Assembly (NCBI GenBank): GCA_902797985.1
Contig: CADBUZ010000011.1
Location: 1-42,478 of the forward strand
DNA length: 42,478 nt
Direction of reading: 5' to 3'
Source of the DNA: an uncultured bacterium
Lineage (GTDB): Bacteria > Cyanobacteriota > Vampirovibrionia > Gastranaerophilales > Gastranaerophilaceae
Part shown: positions 1,791-42,478 of the stretch, one piece after another
Numbering within the stretch: the first letter of the stretch is position 1
Layout of the letters: each line of letters starts with the position of its first letter
Notes under the pieces: generated by a model
The model's input: only the letters and a program-made list of their open reading frames with translations
What the model was told of the DNA's origin: nothing
Databases searched by the model: none
Position numbers and translations under genes: made by a program

Positions 1791-2511
1791 AGAGGGGAGA
1801 ACCGTAAAAATCTTTGATTTTTATTGGTGAGAAGACTCCCTGCCCAATTTTTTCACAGCAAAAAAGACTTCCGATATAATCGAAAGTCTTTAAATATATT
1901 TACCCCTTGGGCAGAGGTAAGAACTCTGTTCACGTTACTCAAAATGATTAAGTATCATTTTGAGATAAAAAATACGTAACAAAACAAAAAAAGAGAATAA
2001 GTGAATAGAGGGGAGAACCGTAAAAATCTTTGATTTTTACTTGGTGAGAAGACTCCCTGCCCAATTTTTTCACAGCAAAAAAGACTCCCTACATAATCGT
2101 AAGTCTTTAAATATATTTACCCCTTGGGCAGAGGTAAGAACTCTGTTCACGTTACTCAAAATGATTAAGTATCATTTTGAGATAAGAAATACGTAACAAA
2201 AGAAAAAAAGAGAATAAGTGAATAGAGGGGAGAACCGTAAAAATCTTTGATTTTTACTTGGTGAGAAGACTCCCTGCCCAATTTTTTCACAGCAAAAAGA
2301 CTCCCTACATAATCGTAAGTCTTTAAATATATTTACCCCTTGGGCAGAGGTAAGGACTCCGTTGAAAAGATTATGTATCTTTTCAATGGAGGGGAGAACC
2401 GTAAAAATCTTTGATTTTTACTTGGTGAGAAGACTCCCTGCCCAATTTTTTCACAACAAAAAAGACTTCCGATATAATCGAAAGTCTTTAAAAATTGGGC
2501 AGAGGTGGATT
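1791..2511. repeat. Tandem array of structured repeats (period about 216)
   Basis: Four units start at 1791, 2007, 2224 and 2389. Units 1 and 2 are 216-217 bases, unit 3 is 165 and unit 4 is partial. Each unit is made of nested inverted repeats: GGGAG/CTCCC enclosing the hairpin GTAAAAATC-TTT-GATTTTTAC; then TGCCCAA/TTGGGCA enclosing a hairpin AAAGACT...AGTCTTT; then CTCTGTTCAC/GTGAATAGAG enclosing CTCAAAATGAT...ATCATTTTGAG (1938-1964 and 2155-2181). In unit 3 the last arm is replaced by a different sequence (2357-2391) that still folds, with CTCT/AGAG changed to CTCC/GGAG. I see no protein product. It may be a structured RNA, a set of terminators, or a DNA element such as a recombination site. 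Confidence 0.85.
2496..2511. repeat. 16-base copy of the tRNA-Tyr 3' end
   Basis: TGGGCAGAGGTGGATT here is identical to 2726-2741, the 3' end of the minus-strand tRNA-Tyr gene. The three full repeat units carry a shorter form, TTGGGCAGAGGT. Duplication of a tRNA 3' end is the usual trace of site-specific integration, but no integrase or long element lies between the copies. Confidence 0.6.
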
Positions 2512-2680
2512 GTCTTGGATTTGCTCCACGCTCACAGAGTAGCGTTTTCGGTACTTTGTACCTGTCAACGCCATCTGTTCGCTATCCGGACTAACTTCGT
2601 GTCGTCCGTCCGCAAATCCGCTCGAACCAGACCAAGCTCCGCTTGGTTGGTTCTCATCCACACGCTCAGCTTATTTGAAA
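2512..2680. other. GC-rich intergenic piece beside tRNA-Tyr
   Basis: About half G+C, in strong contrast to the AT-rich array just before it. It holds small perfect hairpins, for example GGTAC-TTT-GTACC near 2550 and ACCAAGC-TCC-GCTTGGT at 2631-2647. An open frame running through it into the tRNA gene is not a believable protein. Function unknown. Confidence 0.5.
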
Positions 2681-2717
2681 TAAAAGAGAGAATACCATTA
2701 AGGTATTCTCTCTTTTA
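2681..2717 (-). terminator. Terminator of tRNA-Tyr
   Basis: A perfect 16-bp inverted repeat (TAAAAGAGAGAATACC, loop ATTAA, and its complement) just downstream of the minus-strand tRNA-Tyr, ending in a T-rich arm. Confidence 0.8.
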
Positions 2718-2722
2718 CAAAA

Positions 2723-2808
2723 TGGTGGGCAGAGGTGGATTCGAACCACCGTACCCTCGCGGGAACAGATTTACAGTCTGTCGCCTTTAGCCACTCGGCC
2801 ATCTACCC
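2723..2808 (-). tRNA. tRNA-Tyr (anticodon GTA)
   Basis: A class II tRNA of 86 bases including an encoded CCA. The acceptor GGGTAGA pairs with TCTGCCC, with one T-G pair. The anticodon arm CAGAC-TGTAAAT-like loop gives GTA, and the long variable arm CCCGCGAGGG identifies the Tyr type. It is the last of three minus-strand tRNAs, followed by a strong terminator. Its last 16 coding bases recur at 2496-2511. Confidence 0.96.
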
Positions 2809-35479: not shown

Positions 35480-35510
35480 AAAATAACCCTCTATAAAAGA
35501 GGGTTATTTT
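35480..35510 (-). terminator. Terminator of the phage late unit
   Basis: AAAATAACCCTC, loop TATAAAA, GAGGGTTATTTT. The stem includes the terminase stop codon on the minus strand. Confidence 0.85.
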
Positions 35511-36805
35511 ATTCTCCAATAATACTCAGTCAAATAACTCGCAGCATCAAATGGATGCTCCAAAAATTTACTATCACGGTTTGATTTTATCTGAGAAAAA
35601 GTTGGAACATCCACGATACTGGTTCCTTCTTTAAACGAAAGATTATAGATATTATATAGGAGCCATTTACAACGCCTTTCATCTATAAAAAGATGCCTGT
35701 CACCATTTGAATTACAGACTTTAGCATTAAATGCAGCAATACGATTCAAAATTGGAGGATTGTAATCCCTTAAGTGAAATTTAATCTGTTTCTTATCATA
35801 ACCATGATTATATAGAGCATTTCTAATAATGGCATAATTTGTAAACTCACTTTGAGTTGTTCTGTTATCACCTGATGCATCACCATTTATAATAATTTGA
35901 GATTGATGAGTCGGATACCTTCTAAGAAACTCTTGAATACACTGTTCTGTAGTAGTTTTTTCAACAACTATTTCATCAAAATAATAAACGTCATTTTTAT
36001 CGGTATACGCAAGAGTCCAACACATAGGATCTACGTTAAAATCACAAGATATGTGCAAGGGTAAATCAGGAGTATATTTAAAGTGCTTAAGATTATCATC
36101 AGAAAAGCCTTTAACGACAAGCCCATTAGAATAATCACCAAACTGACCTAAAACATTTATTTTATAATATTGTTCATCAAAACTTTCTTTTAGAGAGGAA
36201 ATAAAATGTTGAGGGAGATAAATATTATTAGTAGTGGGAGCAATAATAAGCCTGTAATTTTCTTTTTTTTGTTCAACAAACCTTTTCCAAATCCAACCTT
36301 TATCGGACTGTGGATTAGTATGTCCAAACAACCTGTATTTAAATTCCGGCCAATTATCCCCTCGAAAAGTATTTCTAAGACGACCTAATAATTGCTTAAA
36401 AGAAGCATCGTCTATTTGAGAAGCTTCTTCTATTTCTGCCCAATGTAAATTAAGTGATTTGAATTTTTCAGGATCATCCAAAGCTGAGAACAAAATTTCT
36501 GAACCGTTCTTAAATTTAATAATCTTATCTACTTTATTATAAAAGAAATGGGTATTTTCTCTATAACCGAGATTATCTAAATGTTCGAGATAAGTAACTA
36601 AGGTCGTTTTCCTAACGAGTTCGTATTCTTTTGCCCCAACCAAGCCTCTTGAACCGGGATATTTTTTAGCAAGTAAAATTCCTAACAGAGCGCCACACCA
36701 GGTTTTTCCGCTACCGTAACCCCCTTGATATATTGCAACATCAAGTGGATTATCGTGAGGAATTTCTATAAATTCAATTTGTTTATCTAATAAATTATAT
36801 TTCAT
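35504..36805 (-). CDS. Phage terminase large subunit
   Basis: The motor that packs DNA into phage heads and cuts it. The 433-residue protein has a Walker A GGYGSGKTW (Lys34), an ATPase region ending in LHWAEIEEAS (Walker B), a coupling segment FGHTNPQ, and the C-terminal nuclease with Asp residues in SCDFNVDP and NGDASGDN. Length is normal and nothing looks broken. No small terminase gene is adjacent. It is the last gene of the unit; a terminator covers its stop. Confidence 0.93.
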   Translation of the reverse strand: MKYNLLDKQIEFIEIPHDNPLDVAIYQGGYGSGKTWCGALLGILLAKKYPGSRGLVGAKEYELVRKTTLVTYLEHLDNLGYRENTHFFYNKVDKIIKFKNGSEILFSALDDPEKFKSLNLHWAEIEEASQIDDASFKQLLGRLRNTFRGDNWPEFKYRLFGHTNPQSDKGWIWKRFVEQKKENYRLIIAPTTNNIYLPQHFISSLKESFDEQYYKINVLGQFGDYSNGLVVKGFSDDNLKHFKYTPDLPLHISCDFNVDPMCWTLAYTDKNDVYYFDEIVVEKTTTEQCIQEFLRRYPTHQSQIIINGDASGDNRTTQSEFTNYAIIRNALYNHGYDKKQIKFHLRDYNPPILNRIAAFNAKVCNSNGDRHLFIDERRCKWLLYNIYNLSFKEGTSIVDVPTFSQIKSNRDSKFLEHPFDAASYLTEYYWRIK

Positions 36806-36830
36806 CCTCCCCCCTTTATTTAAAGGCTAA

Positions 36831-37007
36831 TTACTTGCGGGATTTTTCATCAATAATAACATTAATTAAACCCACAACAGCAAGACAAACACCTGCTATA
36901 GCATCAGACATTCCTCCTGATATTGTAACTCCGAGAGCAGCTAAAATAGTAAAGAGTCCTTTATATGTTGAGCTTTGAGCTAAATAATTCATAATAACAT
37001 TTTTCAT
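36831..37007 (-). CDS. Holin-like small membrane protein
   Basis: A 58-residue protein with one or two hydrophobic segments (GLFTILAALGVTISGG; AIAGVCLAVVGLINVII) and a charged tail, DEKSRK, resembling small phage holins that make holes in the inner membrane at lysis. The ATG at 37007 is chosen because AAAGGA precedes it. Earlier in-frame starts overlap the repeat-protein gene. It lies between the fibre genes and the terminase, the usual place for a holin in T7-like phages. Confidence 0.72.
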   Translation of the reverse strand: MKNVIMNYLAQSSTYKGLFTILAALGVTISGGMSDAIAGVCLAVVGLINVIIDEKSRK

Positions 37008-37026
37008 AACATTTCCTTTCATTTTA

Positions 37027-38325
37027 TTAAAGATCAAAATAGACAGTTGCATTTCCGGCACCTCTACCCCACAATGTAGAATACCCTGGGGATGCTTCAA
37101 TTGCTGACTGATTAGCAGCTGCGAAATGCAGTTCAGTTAAGTCAGAACAACCATAGAATACGTTTTTACAAGCATTTTGATTTGTTGTATTTGCTCCACT
37201 ACCATAAGTTATTGTATCAAGTTTAGGGAAGTACATTTTTTGTACTTTATTATTATTTGCAAATGTTCCGTAGGATGATGTAGTACCGCCGGTACAATAT
37301 ATTTTTTCTAATTTAGGGAAAGTAATAGACGTTAAATTTGTACAACCCATAAAACACCCTCCCATTTGCCCATAATTAGCAGTTGACGAATTTTGTCCTA
37401 TTTGCACAAGATTTGTAAATAATACACTCGTAATACCCGTACAACCTGAAAAAACATAAGACATACTATTATCATTAATAGTTGTAACATTACCTAAATT
37501 AATACTGGTTAATTTTTTACAATCTCTAAATGCATAATACATAGCCTGCGCACCGGATATCGTGGTTACGTTTGACATATCTATATTTTCTAAATTTGAG
37601 CAATAACTAAATGTACAGTTTAATGCTGATGAAGTACCAACTGTGGTTAAATTACTTAAATCAATACTTTCTAAACTTGTACAACGACTAAATGTCTCAA
37701 CCATTGCACCATCACCATCAACAGTAGCCAAATTACTCAAATCAATACTTTCTAAAGAAGTACAGTTTTTAAAAGCAGATGCCATAGCTCTATAACCGGT
37801 TACAGTTGTTAAATTACCCATATCCAAAGTTGTTAAATTACTACAATTAGTAAAAGCAAGATACATACTTTGGCTTTTATTTAATATAGTCAAGCTTGGG
37901 AAAGATAATGTCCTTATCGTAGGGTTATTATAAAACTTATATTGAAGCATTTCTTGTCCAAGTCCTTCAACTCCTGTAAAAACCAAATTACAACTTGTAG
38001 AGGGGTGCTGTAATATACCATTATTATCAATATCACCTAAAGTATTATCGGCAGATAATCCATATTTTGAATTACCGCCACCTTGCACATTAACGGTTAC
38101 ACTTGAATATCCATCTGCATTATCATTATTTGCATTATATACTCCATTTTCGGTAACTGTTTTTGTAACAAGAGCAGAAGAACTTCCGCTAGGTATAGAA
38201 TTAATACAAGATGCTAAATTATCCAGATTATGATTTTGGGGCATTGTTGCACCCTTAGACTGACAAGCCGTATATGAATTAGTTAAATTAGTATTCAATT
38301 TTGTTATTTCATTAGATATTGTCAT
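37027..38325 (-). CDS. Phage protein with BspA-like leucine-rich repeats
   Basis: A 432-residue protein. The first 100 residues are like a phage tail or fibre attachment region with VTENGVYNANNDNADGYSSVTVNV, a motif common in phage-borne proteins. The rest is leucine-rich repeats of the BspA/LRR_5 kind, period about 27 residues, typified by FKNCTSLESIDLSNLATV, with Cys at the same place in most. It ends in ATVYFDL. BspA-type repeats are known in surface adhesins; here the protein is likely the receptor-binding tip or a cargo adhesin. ATG at 38325 has AAGGAG before it. Confidence 0.85.
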   Translation of the reverse strand: MTISNEITKLNTNLTNSYTACQSKGATMPQNHNLDNLASCINSIPSGSSSALVTKTVTENGVYNANNDNADGYSSVTVNVQGGGNSKYGLSADNTLGDIDNNGILQHPSTSCNLVFTGVEGLGQEMLQYKFYNNPTIRTLSFPSLTILNKSQSMYLAFTNCSNLTTLDMGNLTTVTGYRAMASAFKNCTSLESIDLSNLATVDGDGAMVETFSRCTSLESIDLSNLTTVGTSSALNCTFSYCSNLENIDMSNVTTISGAQAMYYAFRDCKKLTSINLGNVTTINDNSMSYVFSGCTGITSVLFTNLVQIGQNSSTANYGQMGGCFMGCTNLTSITFPKLEKIYCTGGTTSSYGTFANNNKVQKMYFPKLDTITYGSGANTTNQNACKNVFYGCSDLTELHFAAANQSAIEASPGYSTLWGRGAGNATVYFDL

Positions 38326-38335
38326 AATATTCTCC

Positions 38336-39193
38336 TTACCAACCATCATCACTGCCATCTATACTACCACCTGAGGTTGAACCGCCGCTATCTACAACAC
38401 TCGCACTTGAATTACCACTATTGATAGCTTGTAAAGCTGATTCTACATCCCCAACTAAATCATAAACACATTTAGCAGATGGATATTGAGTATCCGTACT
38501 GCTTGCAGATAAAGAAGTAACCTTATTAGAGGAATTTTCTTTAGCAGTAATATCTTGATGCTGTGTTAAATACTGACTGTGTGTATGAACAGGATTACTG
38601 CCCAAGTTGTCGGTAAAACTACTTAAAGTAGTAGGAATAGTAGGTATTGTCGGTTTATTATTCAAATCATTATAGGAGCCTGTCATTGCAACTGCTGCCA
38701 AGTCTGACAAATTTGCTTTTTCTGATATGTCTTGATGTTGGGTAAGATAACCTTTATTATCTATTTGTGTTTTTGTATAATAATCCGATAAACTTTGATG
38801 TTCTGTTAAAAATTTACTATCTGCAGCAGTCTTTGTATAATAATTATCAAGAGATTGATGTTCTGTTAAAAATCCTCTTTGGTTCAAATCAGAAGTTGTA
38901 ACATAGTCACCGGAAGCTTGTTTTGTTCCTATTAACTGTCTTAATTCAGAATCATCATAATTTGACAAATTGTCCAATTTACTTTTATATGCATTAGTAA
39001 AGTCATTTGAAGATAGAGCTTTACCGGTAATTTTATCAACTTTATTATCATCTAAATTTTGAACAGCAGTTTGAATATCAGTGTCATCATATTCAACATA
39101 ACTTGAAACAAGATTTTTTAAATATTGAAAATTCCTTTCAATCTTTGAGGTTAAAGCTTGTAAAGCATTTTTTAAATTATTATTATCAGCCAT
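38336..39193 (-). CDS. Phage tail-fibre protein
   Basis: A 285-residue fibre protein. The N terminus is helical, the centre contains fibre repeats (YYTKTAADSKFLTEHQSL, YYTKTQIDNKGYLTQHQ) and NDLNNKPTIP, typical of trimeric tail fibres, with a C-terminal part ending in SDDGW. The ATG at 39193 is supported by AAAGGA upstream. It follows another fibre protein that also ends in SDDGW. Confidence 0.86.
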   Translation of the reverse strand: MADNNNLKNALQALTSKIERNFQYLKNLVSSYVEYDDTDIQTAVQNLDDNKVDKITGKALSSNDFTNAYKSKLDNLSNYDDSELRQLIGTKQASGDYVTTSDLNQRGFLTEHQSLDNYYTKTAADSKFLTEHQSLSDYYTKTQIDNKGYLTQHQDISEKANLSDLAAVAMTGSYNDLNNKPTIPTIPTTLSSFTDNLGSNPVHTHSQYLTQHQDITAKENSSNKVTSLSASSTDTQYPSAKCVYDLVGDVESALQAINSGNSSASVVDSGGSTSGGSIDGSDDGW

Positions 39194-39213
39194 AAGAAAT
39201 CCTTTCATAAAAT

Positions 39214-40401
39214 TTACCAACCGTCGTCGCTAAAATCAAAATCCGAGTCAAAATCAGACCCGTCATCGACCAAATATTGTTTTGGATAAGGATCAGAAGG
39301 AATATAATAATACATATAATCTTCATCCATTAACCAATAGGTTTTATTATTAATAACAACTCCGACATTAGGCAAACAAGAAGAATTGATAACCAAATCG
39401 GAAGTATCAAGACCTATACCATTTTCATCCCAAAATTTACTCATACGAACATAATTCACTATAGAATTGTTATTATTGCTTGAGCCGTATGTACCATAAA
39501 TAAAGCTATCATCACTAGCAAACCATTTATACAATCTGGATATCTTATAATTATCTTCAGTAAGCAACAGCTCATCACTAACATTTTCTTGAGCAATCCA
39601 ATTATTTGGATAATATATTTTAACGTTAGATATTTTTTGAGTTTGCTCATTATAATCATAACTAAACACTTTGATTTTATGATATTCATCGCTCAGTCCT
39701 CTTTCTGAGACATCAGAATGATTACCCAATGCAATAATAGAAGATTTTTGTTTTAAGAAAATAGGATAAGAAACCGTTTTATCTTCAGACAAAGCTACTT
39801 TAACAGAAAGTCTGGAATCAGATATAACATTATATTCAAAATTATCTTCAACTTGACCGCCAAAAACTTTTGATAAAAATTCTTTTGTAAAAATTATTTG
39901 AGAATCTCTATAATAGATACCCACTTGACCTGAAGAATTAGGTTCAGCATTTTCATTATCGTAAGTCACTTCTTGAATATCAGAAGTAGGATTATCCGGA
40001 GTAACATTATCATCGAGTTCAGTAATGTTTTCACTAACAATTTCCAAAATCAAATTAGCCAATTGAGAATCATTTTTTCTTGAAGAAATAACTTCTTCAA
40101 TTAATATATCAATTTCATTTTTATCATAAGTAAAAACTTGCTCTGCAGTAACGGAATGCGGGTTGAGCACATTTCTGACGTGTGTATCAATGTTTGGAAT
40201 ATAGACATTATTAATATTATTATAAATTCTCTCACATTCACTAAGAATTCTTTGAGCAGCAGCAAGGTTATCAGAAGAAAGATTAGCATTATTTTCGGCA
40301 GATAAGGCACTTTTTTCAGCCAAATCTTGATAATATTTAACATCATTATTAACAACACGAACGATATTAGAATTTTTATCAGATGTATTAATTTTATTCA
40401 T
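39214..40401 (-). CDS. Phage tail-fibre or baseplate protein
   Basis: A 395-residue protein. A coiled-coil N terminus (KYYQDLAEKSALSAENNANL) leads to HVRNVLNPHSVTAEQV, a segment typical of phage tail fibres. The remainder is beta-rich with acidic patches and ends FDSDFDFSDDGW, sharing the final SDDGW with the next fibre gene. The start overlaps the stop of the 121-residue gene by one base (TAATG). Family assignment is by motif only. Confidence 0.8.
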   Translation of the reverse strand: MNKINTSDKNSNIVRVVNNDVKYYQDLAEKSALSAENNANLSSDNLAAAQRILSECERIYNNINNVYIPNIDTHVRNVLNPHSVTAEQVFTYDKNEIDILIEEVISSRKNDSQLANLILEIVSENITELDDNVTPDNPTSDIQEVTYDNENAEPNSSGQVGIYYRDSQIIFTKEFLSKVFGGQVEDNFEYNVISDSRLSVKVALSEDKTVSYPIFLKQKSSIIALGNHSDVSERGLSDEYHKIKVFSYDYNEQTQKISNVKIYYPNNWIAQENVSDELLLTEDNYKISRLYKWFASDDSFIYGTYGSSNNNNSIVNYVRMSKFWDENGIGLDTSDLVINSSCLPNVGVVINNKTYWLMDEDYMYYYIPSDPYPKQYLVDDGSDFDSDFDFSDDGW

Positions 40402-40766
40402 TATAAACCCTCCACTTTTTTAGGAAAAACAATAATATTATTAGGAAAACCAAAGGGCACACCTTCAACTTGCAGAGTATTTTCGATATCATCAAAACAA
40501 GACTTAATTCCATAGTGATAAATCTCATATTCTTCATTTGAAGGCACAGTAAACAAATTAGTAAAACTACTATTCAAGAAAAAAGTAACAGACGGTTTAA
40601 AATCAGAATTTGCAACTAATTCAGAGCCAACAGGTTCACGTTTAGAATTTTTAACGGCAAAATATATTTGATAATTTTTATCAGTATTTAATCCTGTAAC
40701 TACAACCTCGCCGCTATCACCTTGATGAATAAAAATATTACCTTTGTCATCAATATTAATAGTCAT
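40401..40766 (-). CDS. Small phage baseplate or fibre-associated protein
   Basis: A 121-residue beta-rich protein starting MTINIDDKGNIFIHQGDSGEVVVTG, with FAVKNSKREP and ending FPKKVEGL. It resembles short phage proteins found before upper baseplate or fibre proteins, but I cannot name it. It overlaps the fibre-assembly-like gene by 11 bases at its start and touches the next gene at its stop, in line with translational coupling. Confidence 0.75.
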   Translation of the reverse strand: MTINIDDKGNIFIHQGDSGEVVVTGLNTDKNYQIYFAVKNSKREPVGSELVANSDFKPSVTFFLNSSFTNLFTVPSNEEYEIYHYGIKSCFDDIENTLQVEGVPFGFPNNIIVFPKKVEGL

Positions 40767-41259
40767 ATTTCACCTCCGAGAGTTTACGCCTTAGATTAAC
40801 GATTAGTTCATTGTAATATTCGAGCCAAGTTTGACCTGTTGCATCATCTTTTACTGATGGTTCACAAATAGCCCTAAGTCTTTTTGCATCTAATTCTTCC
40901 AATTTTGACAGAATCATATTTTTGTCTTCTATGCTTTTCATTTTTTTAGCATAATTCTTATATTCGGCAGATTTTTTAAAAACGGAATATAGAATCCAAT
41001 TATCATCAAGGTTACCGATTTTATCAACGACAGAAATTTCCATTGTTAAAAGATTAATTTGTTTTTGTCCTCGAAAATCAGATATAATTTTCCAACAATC
41101 ATTATCAAAAATAATAGTTTCATTAGAATTAACAGAAGGTGGTTTAATAGTCGTAGAAAATGGTGGAAAAAGAAATTCACCATTTCTGAGAGGATTTTTT
41201 TGAGCAAACCCTTCGCAAAGAAATTCTTTGGATTCTTTATCATAGTTATAAATTTTCAT
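40756..41259 (-). CDS. Tail-fibre assembly-like protein
   Basis: A 167-residue protein whose N terminus, MKIYNYDKESKEFLCEGFAQ followed by NP, PP-F-TTI-PP, matches the pattern of phage fibre-assembly (Tfa-like) proteins, which help fibres fold or sit at the tip. The C-terminal half is helical and charged (EELDAKRLRAI, WLEYYNELIVNLRR). It lies between the collar-domain gene and the fibre genes. Tfa relationship is moderate. Confidence 0.75.
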   Translation of the reverse strand: MKIYNYDKESKEFLCEGFAQKNPLRNGEFLFPPFSTTIKPPSVNSNETIIFDNDCWKIISDFRGQKQINLLTMEISVVDKIGNLDDNWILYSVFKKSAEYKNYAKKMKSIEDKNMILSKLEELDAKRLRAICEPSVKDDATGQTWLEYYNELIVNLRRKLSEVKYDY

Positions 41260-41274
41260 AAAACTCCTTTCGAA

Positions 41275-41910
41275 TTAGTACTTAATAATAAAATTAATAG
41301 CAATAGCCGGTGGTTGAACGGTAGAACAGCTATCAGAATAAATCTCATTTGAAGCTGACGCATCAAAAGAAATAAGAGGGTTAACAGCACCACTGCTATG
41401 TCCTTTTCCGGCGCTACCACCGTTAGCGCCAGCAGAGAAAGCGCCTGAAAGATCGCTATACCCTTGAGTACCGGCCAATCTAAAATCGCCTTTTATATTT
41501 GGTAAATTTGGTTCAATAGTTTTCCCCAAAGAATGTGTGCCAATTCCCCAAACGGTTTTGTTTCTTAAATCAGGTAAACAAAAAGAAGTACTATCAGTAC
41601 TACCAAAAAGTTTACCTATTACAGAATATAAATTAGAAAAATCCTGAATTTTAATTTCAGAACCATCACAAAGTAGAAATCCTGTTGGCAGAGAAGAACC
41701 AACAAATGGCAAAATCATACCAACATTTATTTTACATTCATCAATATTATTGATAGAAGTATTCATAGAGGCCATGTTTCTATCAAACTCAGAAGATTTA
41801 TTAGCTAAATTTGTAGCCAAGGCTTCAACAATAGATTCTAAATAATTAAAATTTTCATTCATTATCTTAGAGGAAGCGATAGAGCCATATTCAATTTTAG
41901 TTAAACTCAT
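41275..41910 (-). CDS. Phage tail collar domain protein
   Basis: A 211-residue protein. After a helical N terminus (to about 65) comes the tail-collar fold: VGMILPFVGSSLPTGFLLCDGSEI, LFGSTDSTSFCLPDLRNKTVWGIG. The C-terminal end has a Gly/Ser-rich stretch, and PPAIAINFIIKY, which is the usual end of such proteins. Short tail fibres and microcin-type structures carry this fold. AAGGA is seen upstream. Confidence 0.9.
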   Translation of the reverse strand: MSLTKIEYGSIASSKIMNENFNYLESIVEALATNLANKSSEFDRNMASMNTSINNIDECKINVGMILPFVGSSLPTGFLLCDGSEIKIQDFSNLYSVIGKLFGSTDSTSFCLPDLRNKTVWGIGTHSLGKTIEPNLPNIKGDFRLAGTQGYSDLSGAFSAGANGGSAGKGHSSGAVNPLISFDASASNEIYSDSCSTVQPPAIAINFIIKY

Positions 41911-41913
41911 AAA

Positions 41914-42153
41914 TTATTCCTTTCCGCCAATAATAGCATCATAAATTTTATCGACCTTTTTCTGCATATCAGATATTTGATTTTTCAAATTATTAGATTC
42001 TTCTTTTGTCATATACTTTTGAGACACCGTTTCAAGAATTTGTCTATGCTGAATTTCCAATTCTTGAGGGGTAACAAACAAGTTATATTGAAAGAACATA
42101 ACAAACACAATCAAAACAACCGGTGCATATCTTGTCATTATTTCTTTGTCCAT
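41914..42153 (-). CDS. Small membrane protein with coiled-coil tail
   Basis: A 79-residue protein with one membrane segment (about residues 10-27, APVVLIVFVMFFQYNLFV) and a heptad-like tail (EESNNLKNQISDMQKKVDKI). In phages such proteins can act as spanin-like lysis or tail-associated factors. No lipoprotein partner is adjacent. It overlaps the preceding gene by 16 bases; AAGGAG lies before its ATG, inside that gene. Confidence 0.7.
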   Translation of the reverse strand: MDKEIMTRYAPVVLIVFVMFFQYNLFVTPQELEIQHRQILETVSQKYMTKEESNNLKNQISDMQKKVDKIYDAIIGGKE

Positions 42154-42326
42154 AAATTTCTCCTTAAAATTAATAATTGAATTTTGTCAGATGTTTTCAT
42201 CATCGGCATGTATTTTTCAGAAACGGACAAAGCATGTTGTAAATCAAACTTAAGACTATCAATTTTAGAGTTAAGATTTGATATTTCATTGTTTAATTTA
42301 GAAAATTTAGAAAATATTTTAAACAT
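42138..42326 (-). CDS. 62-residue coiled-coil phage protein
   Basis: A helical protein with heptads (FSKLNNEISNLNSKIDSLKFDL), no signal peptide. It is the first gene visible in the phage unit. An AAGGAG precedes the ATG. Its last codons contain the ribosome binding site for the next gene. Function unknown. Confidence 0.65.
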   Translation of the reverse strand: MFKIFSKFSKLNNEISNLNSKIDSLKFDLQHALSVSEKYMPMMKTSDKIQLLILRRNLWTKK

Positions 42327-42393
42327 AAAAACTCCTTAAAATAATTTTTATAAAACGATTCAATCTCTCCTTTTAGGGAACAGTTCAGTTCAT

Positions 42394-42426
42394 CCCCTCT
42401 CCGAGGGAGAGGACTAGGGTGAGGGG
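42394..42426. repeat. CCCCTCTCC/GGTGAGGGG palindromic element
   Basis: CCTCTCC-GAG-GGAGAGG hairpin followed by ACTAGGGTGAGGGG, the pattern of extragenic palindromes found in many bacterial genomes. It sits in the 152-base non-coding end of the window, just upstream of the phage genes. Its GC content is unlike its surroundings. Confidence 0.7.
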
Positions 42427-42478
42427 TTATATTTTTTAAAGAACATATAAACCTCATGAAGTTTCTATCTCTCCTTCG

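Follow-up and report, generated by a model that had tools for sequence, protein, structure and literature searches.

The tandem array of structured repeats located beside the tRNA-Tyr gene in a 42,478-nt stretch of DNA from an uncultured bacterium of the Gastranaerophilales (hereafter the window) is probably the product of three insertions of one hairpin-containing element, E, and of one newer insertion of a second type, B, all at the 3′ end of the tRNA gene. They would be members of a Gastranaerophilales family of non-coding and non-autonomous mobile elements of about 90-300 bp, which have a hairpin at their core and target the ends of tRNA genes. This family is apparently undescribed. The positions of the copies, their flanking repeats, the covariation of the hairpin, the distribution and polymorphism of the insertions and the absence of genes in them are read directly from the genomes.

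The array beside tRNA-Tyr

A preliminary description of this DNA had claimed a tandem array of structured units, and this is borne out. TRF finds a 217-bp tandem array at 1790-2363 (2.7 copies, 97% matches, score 1078), a repeat search finds a 111-nt module four times (at 1787, 2004, 2221 and 2385, i.e. with spacings of 217, 217 and 164), and unit 3 (2340-2446) folds at -45.8 kcal/mol as compared to -24.0 +/- 3.3 for dinucleotide shuffles (z = -6.7). Every arm listed at that stage is present in the sequence: GGGAG/CTCCC, TGCCCAA/TTGGGCA, the third pair CTCTGTTCAC (1924-1933)/GTGAATAGAG (2001-2010) and the outer pair of unit 3, CTCC (2357-2360)/GGAG (2388-2391). The third arm of unit 3 does fold, but it is the hairpin of the other units in shortened form and not a base-by-base compensated copy; the proof of true compensatory change is found in the E copies of relatives and not in the window alone. 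Three features had been missed: the duplicated tRNA-Tyr ends within the units, the occurrence of the E hairpin at many other tRNA genes and the second hairpin element (2512-2725) lying between the array and tRNA-Tyr.

The strand of the array is the minus strand, and copies of the 3′ end of tRNA-Tyr form the basis of its units. Seen on the plus strand, these copies (TTGGGCAGAGGT) start at 1907, 2124, 2340 and 2495, and GTGGGCAGAGGT is found inside tRNA-Tyr itself at 2725. Each unit, when read on the minus strand, begins with a tRNA-Tyr 3′-end copy (ACCTCTGCCCAA) and a terminator-like hairpin, continues with an inverted tRNA-end copy carrying a mock T-arm (TTGGGCAG..GTCTTCTCACC), a small hairpin, the sequence GGTTC and the larger hairpin E.

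The insertion target, an intact tRNA-Tyr(GTA) gene (2723-2808, minus strand), was identified with ARAGORN and Rfam. Its nt 58-73 (AATCCACCTCTGCCCA, 2726-2741, minus) form the inner copy of an exact 16-bp direct repeat flanking the newest insertion, the outer copy of which (2496-2511, minus) is the displaced tRNA-Tyr 3′ end. The 214 bp in between constitute the B-type insertion (2512-2725, minus), which is absent at the congener loci L172 and L173; it comprises, all on the minus strand, a terminator (2681-2717), an inverted T-arm copy (about 2646-2661), a small hairpin (about 2629-2650), the T-stem mimic GGTTCGA (about 2622-2628) and the core of hairpin B (about 2512-2620). Further outward comes a terminator-like hairpin (2459-2490, minus) that was formerly behind tRNA-Tyr and is still directly behind it in L172 and L173. 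It is followed by E copy 3, a short form (2357-2391, plus; tip GATTATGTATC at 2369-2379), a displaced tRNA-Tyr end (2340-2351, minus), E copy 2, a long form (2140-2227, plus; tip GATTAAGTATC at 2163-2173), a second displaced end (2124-2135, minus), E copy 1, also long (1923-2010, plus; same tip at 1946-1956), and the outermost displaced end (1907-1918, minus). The array finishes with the outermost copy of the terminator-like hairpin (1864-1892, minus) and the outermost third arm (GGGGAGAACC-hairpin-GGTGAGAAGACTCCC) together with the complement of the tRNA end (CTGCCCAA; 1795-1847, plus).

Two other regions of the window may be mentioned. A GC-rich structured stretch at 130-330, downstream of tRNA-Glu (330-404, minus), resembles a further palindromic repeat and is related to a stretch at the start of locus L160 (GCGAGGGGCAGC...TTTTCGGTAG). 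A phage-like block occupies 35504-42478, with a Terminase_3 large subunit, tail-fibre-like proteins and a BspA-type leucine-rich-repeat protein.

Hairpin E: covariation and distribution

Hairpin E consists of a foot (ACTCYG), a stem, a tip (GAT-TAAGT-ATC), the returning stem and a second foot (GAGAGG); the feet and the tip are conserved in sequence and the stem covaries. Over 34 distinct sequences, 93% of the positions of the nine-pair stem are standard pairs, and 41 cells are changed on both sides versus 11.5 +/- 3.0 after shuffling, a value that none of 500 shuffles reached. Sliding the stem partners abolishes the signal, and it is by these slid controls, not by the shuffles, that relatedness is controlled. 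The earlier suggestion that the structure is under selection is therefore upheld by these two-sided changes. What they demonstrate is a conserved hairpin, with which RNA and single-stranded DNA are equally compatible.

In the genome to which the window belongs, E copies can be recognised by the tip motif GATTANGTATC; they accompany tRNA-Ser, Lys, Leu(TAA), Leu(TAG), Met, Pro, Gln and other tRNA genes. Far from being confined to one strain, E was detected with a covariance model in 119 of the 130 genomes sampled from the same Gastranaerophilales family; one genome of another family of this order was also matched, and none of the 161 other members of the class or phylum. A scan of 84,980 species genomes for the pattern ACTCTGCCGA-N(2-14)-GATTAAGTATC gave, among the matches listed, named records that are mostly gut MAGs of Gastranaerophilales, Melainabacteria or Cyanobacteria, plus three that go, by record name alone, under other names (L056, L085 and L087). 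Among these listed matches, 60 out of 100 E copies elsewhere are at most 300 bp from a predicted tRNA, and many others are near contig ends. The initial impression that the repeat belongs to no known family held: no Rfam covariance model scored above threshold (the best, SprX, reached 20.4 bits for a gathering value of 80), phage and plasmid collections contained no match to the element and IMG/VR viral contigs none to E. A description of the element was not found in the literature, in a search largely without subscription journals.

E is also found inside other intergenic palindromic repeats (L100, L068, L122, L056 and L094), in forms such as TGTCATCCTGAGC-E-CGAAGGATC and GTCATTGCGAGC-E-GAAGCAATCC; there it lies about 12 nt from the end of the repeat and target duplication is not visible.

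Insertion at fixed points of tRNA genes

Copies of E adjoin tRNA genes at fixed positions, either after nt 11-12, in the D-stem, or at nt 62/63, in the T-stem. The sample surveyed was enriched for E and comprised 218 distinct tRNA loci; 46 of the 60 copies on the 5′ side ended at tRNA nt 11-12 and 47 of the 60 had ACTCTG directly after; on the 3′ side, copies of the E type clustered at nt 63 and those of the B type at A58, preceded by AAGAC or GATAC. The tandem units found upstream of tRNA genes measure about 75-116 bp; each repeats the leader and the initial 11-12 nt of the tRNA and then has E, in the same sense as the tRNA. Downstream, E is read on the opposite strand, so that on both sides it is oriented from the tRNA end inward. 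The direct repeats are the duplicated tRNA end, commonly 16-21 bp, and it is because of this duplication that the tRNA gene survives the insertion.

Hairpin B (GCGGATTTGCGGACGGACGAC..GAGCAAATCCAAGAC) follows a rule of the same kind with another site, in the T-loop: in the loci examined, it always enters at tRNA nt 57/58, on the 3′ side. Besides the window (2512-2725), copies are present in L017 (1060-1225), L200, L208, L219 and L289. Terminal inverted repeats were not seen by eye at the ends of B. Further hairpins (GGATTTTCGG.. and GACGACTGAGC..), with GATAC at their end, use the same point, nt 57/58.

The extent of the phenomenon was estimated by counting exact copies of tRNA ends within 500 bp of the corresponding gene. 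Such copies accompany 15 of the 38 tRNA genes of the genome that contains the window and 15 of the 30 of its congener G004, neither of which has any on the inverted strand within this distance; in an E-free relative, G047, none of 17 tRNA genes has one. The distant, E-free G136 shows copies at 2 of 17 tRNA genes, a hint of a possible related process, with other hairpins, beyond the family; tRNA 3′-end repeats enclose insertions of about 110-140 bp at two of its tRNA genes (L311 and L337). An adaptation of the base stem of the 5′ units to their own tRNA was only weakly above permuted pairs (mean of 5.2 versus 4.7 nt, 8 of 2000 permutations) and, for this reason, is not used as a main argument.

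Evidence for movement

Congeners show the tRNA-Tyr locus as it is before and after the insertions. In L174, tRNA-Tyr is followed by a plain terminator, without array, i.e. the site is empty. L172 and L173 have E units, with the terminator of the unit directly behind tRNA-Tyr and no B; L170, like the window, has the extra B insertion, with the former tRNA-Tyr end pushed outward. The set of occupied genes differs as well between G000 and G004; tRNA-Ile, for instance, is occupied in G000 only, and tRNA-Asp, Gly-TCC and Arg-ACG in G004 only. These differences and the empty tRNA-Tyr site lead us to conclude that the elements move. It counts against our explanation that neither an excised or circular form nor a before/after pair within a strain was seen, that the genomes are MAGs and that the E copies inside other palindromic repeats show no target duplication.

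Are the repeats target-site duplications or att cores borne by the element? Nearly identical elements, including the terminator, are found at tRNA-Val and tRNA-Ala in the window's genome, and each of the two genes keeps its own intact 3′ end in front of the element. This pair favours, provisionally, a repeat copied from the target, the tRNA-Ala copy being cut by a contig end so that its outer repeat is missing.

Gene-bearing segments were noted in two loci. On the minus strand of L070 (800-6150), 12 copies of the tRNA-His 3′ end are spread over 5.3 kb, the array stopping before rpsO. Most of these copies have a new terminator after them, and the copies alternate with B-type hairpin units of about 210-240 bp and with segments of 290-830 bp, several of which contain a single small ORF (106-185 aa); a tail, TTGYTCAATCGTATCTTCTTCRTRCAAACATAAATGCA, is conserved in three segments. 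Five of the ORFs have no match elsewhere in the fetched loci and none has one at the Pfam cut-off. In L015, the segment between two E sites at tRNA-Ser is 3.4 kb long and contains an HTH gene and genes for exported proteins. We also observed that many small proteins encoded in L070, L161 and L096 share an N-terminal pattern of the kind M-x-I-T-x-I/N..SFKG/SFTG/SFGM, which possibly constitutes a lineage-specific sorting signal.

Search for a mobilising enzyme

The insertions of 90-300 bp contain no genes, and the elements encode nothing. RAYT transposases were considered and rejected: REP-associated Y1 transposases are absent in 8 of 15 E-rich genomes, and the RAYTs of the window's genome are flanked by GTAG-type repeats of their own and not by E. 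The RAYT-like Y1 transposase genes of that genome are in L160-L162, with the repeats GTAGGGTGCGTC..GACGCACC and GTAGGTCAGGCACTGCCTGAC; a tRNA-Met hotspot (L272) has one RAYT with an E copy on either side. Another candidate, reverse transcription primed by tRNA, was prompted by the 16-nt repeat, which spans A58 to nt 73, and by the gain of CCA at tRNA-Val and tRNA-Tyr. It was discarded because the window's genome, which is 97.7% complete, has no match to reverse transcriptase (PF00078), and because the insertions at Leu, Met and Gly gain no CCA.

The number of tyrosine recombinases does not distinguish E-rich from E-free genomes, and the integrases present near E in L263 and L372 are part of ordinary elements inserted at the anticodon loop. 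The window's genome has three tyrosine recombinases; by eye, two look like Xer-type and one like phage-type enzymes, and no integron integrase was recognised among them. No gene recurs convincingly beside E, nor does any transposase family. That neither RAYTs, reverse transcriptases, recombinase counts nor neighbouring genes yield a candidate mobiliser weighs against our explanation.

Proposed mechanism and alternative explanations

In the explanation that we favour, the element would enter a tRNA gene at a fixed point inside either end, nt 11-12, 62/63 or 57/58 depending on the type of hairpin, and the stretch of tRNA between this point and the flank, commonly 16-21 bp, would be duplicated. 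One copy of the tRNA end would complete a functional tRNA and the other be displaced outward behind the element. Elements inserted on the 3′ side have their own terminator beside the restored tRNA, those inserted on the 5′ side an AT-rich leader, and repeated insertion or unequal exchange between repeats would produce the tandem arrays. We infer that an enzyme supplied in trans mobilises the element by acting on its hairpin, folded most probably from single-stranded DNA. One feature counts against this scheme: simple insertion does not explain why each insertion contains an inverted and adapted copy of the tRNA arm.

The gene-bearing segments of L070 and L015 are the basis of two related readings. 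According to one, which we judge unlikely, the tRNA arm is an attI-like platform and E and B are the attC-like folded sites of small, mostly empty cassettes inserted by a site-specific recombinase; the small ORFs lying between several of the tRNA-His ends in L070, the E sites bordering the segment of L015, the fixed crossover points and the fact that new insertions adjoin the tRNA all fit such a scheme. But L070 is the sole array of this kind among the fetched loci, the recombinases in the genome are not recognisable as integron integrases, and the Val/Ala pair argues, provisionally, that the tRNA end comes from the target and not from a cassette. The other reading, likewise rather unlikely, is a new kind of mobile system with site specificity: hairpin sites in single-stranded form (E, B and others) would be recombined into either tRNA end, with the end regenerated from the target, and the system could also carry single-gene cassettes; it would be a tRNA-anchored counterpart of integrons with an unknown recombinase.

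That the units are functional structured RNAs, transcribed with the tRNA and serving in its processing, in termination or in protection against nucleases, seems quite improbable to us and is not needed to explain the array. The covarying stem, the stable folds, the proximity of tRNAs and the terminators and AT-rich leaders in the units would suit such a role, but the covariation is equally expected for DNA hairpins selected for mobility, the occupied tRNAs differ between congeners, the same tRNA being empty in others, insertions on the 3′ side are beyond a terminator, and E also occurs within unrelated intergenic palindromes. A structured RNA, an anti-nuclease or processing array and a recombination platform next to tRNA genes had been put forward initially; we found nothing pointing to an anti-nuclease or RNA-processing array, and the last of the three guesses comes closest. 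Very improbable, finally, is that ordinary prophages or islands integrating at tRNA genes left decayed att remnants, with tandem duplication in addition. It is true that tRNA genes are targets of integrases, which leave tRNA fragments displaced (PMC4383910), and that ordinary integrase-bearing elements are present at the same tRNA genes (L372, L263); however, the insertion point of these is the anticodon loop and they bring an integrase gene, while the gene-free E and B are found at nt 11-12, 57/58 and 62/63. Moreover, hairpins conserved and covarying throughout the family, in insertions of a single size range, are unlike random decay.

Comparison with known systems

REP sequences and BIMEs are similar in appearance, being likewise short, non-coding, hairpin-forming, non-autonomous, present in tens of copies per genome and tandem or clustered (PMC3733652, PMC1525189). 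REPs carry a GTAG tag and are mobilised by RAYT transposases (PMC3733652); in contrast, the feet of E, ACTCTGCCGA and GAGAGG, have no GTAG (or CGTC) tag, E targets the ends of tRNA genes with target duplication, and many E-rich genomes are devoid of RAYT genes. With tRNA-borne islands and prophages, as exploited by the Islander principle (PMC4383910), our elements share a displaced tRNA fragment, a restored tRNA and an element in between, but they measure 0.1-0.3 kb instead of more than 2 kb, have no integrase or any other gene and use both tRNA ends at several fixed positions. The Islander filters, a 2 kb length and an integrase, would discard them (PMC4383910).

Integron cassettes and their attC sites resemble the elements by their hairpin sites, their tandem growth beside a fixed platform and occasional gene-bearing segments (L070, L015). 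The differences are that the platform is a tRNA gene, that the tip and feet of the hairpin are conserved, that most units are gene-free and that an integron integrase was not recognised; a covarying hairpin is present at each E unit, and R and L core boxes were not found by eye. Mitochondrial repetitive hairpin elements are small and mobile, with an unknown mobiliser, and are often located beside tRNA genes (PMC2800124); they differ in that their places, in loops and intergenic regions, are not fixed relative to tRNAs and that no tRNA end is restored. In each comparison one defining feature does not agree, whether the GTAG tag and linked RAYT, the integrase and length, or the fixed tRNA position.

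In a widespread gut lineage, between a third and a half of all tRNA genes are flanked by these elements, which nonetheless fall below the filters of island finders. The question that they pose is which enzyme places a hairpin at a constant distance from either end, inside many different tRNA genes, and restores the gene in doing so. Provided that they carry genes, which L070 suggests, genes would be captured at tRNA loci by a new route.
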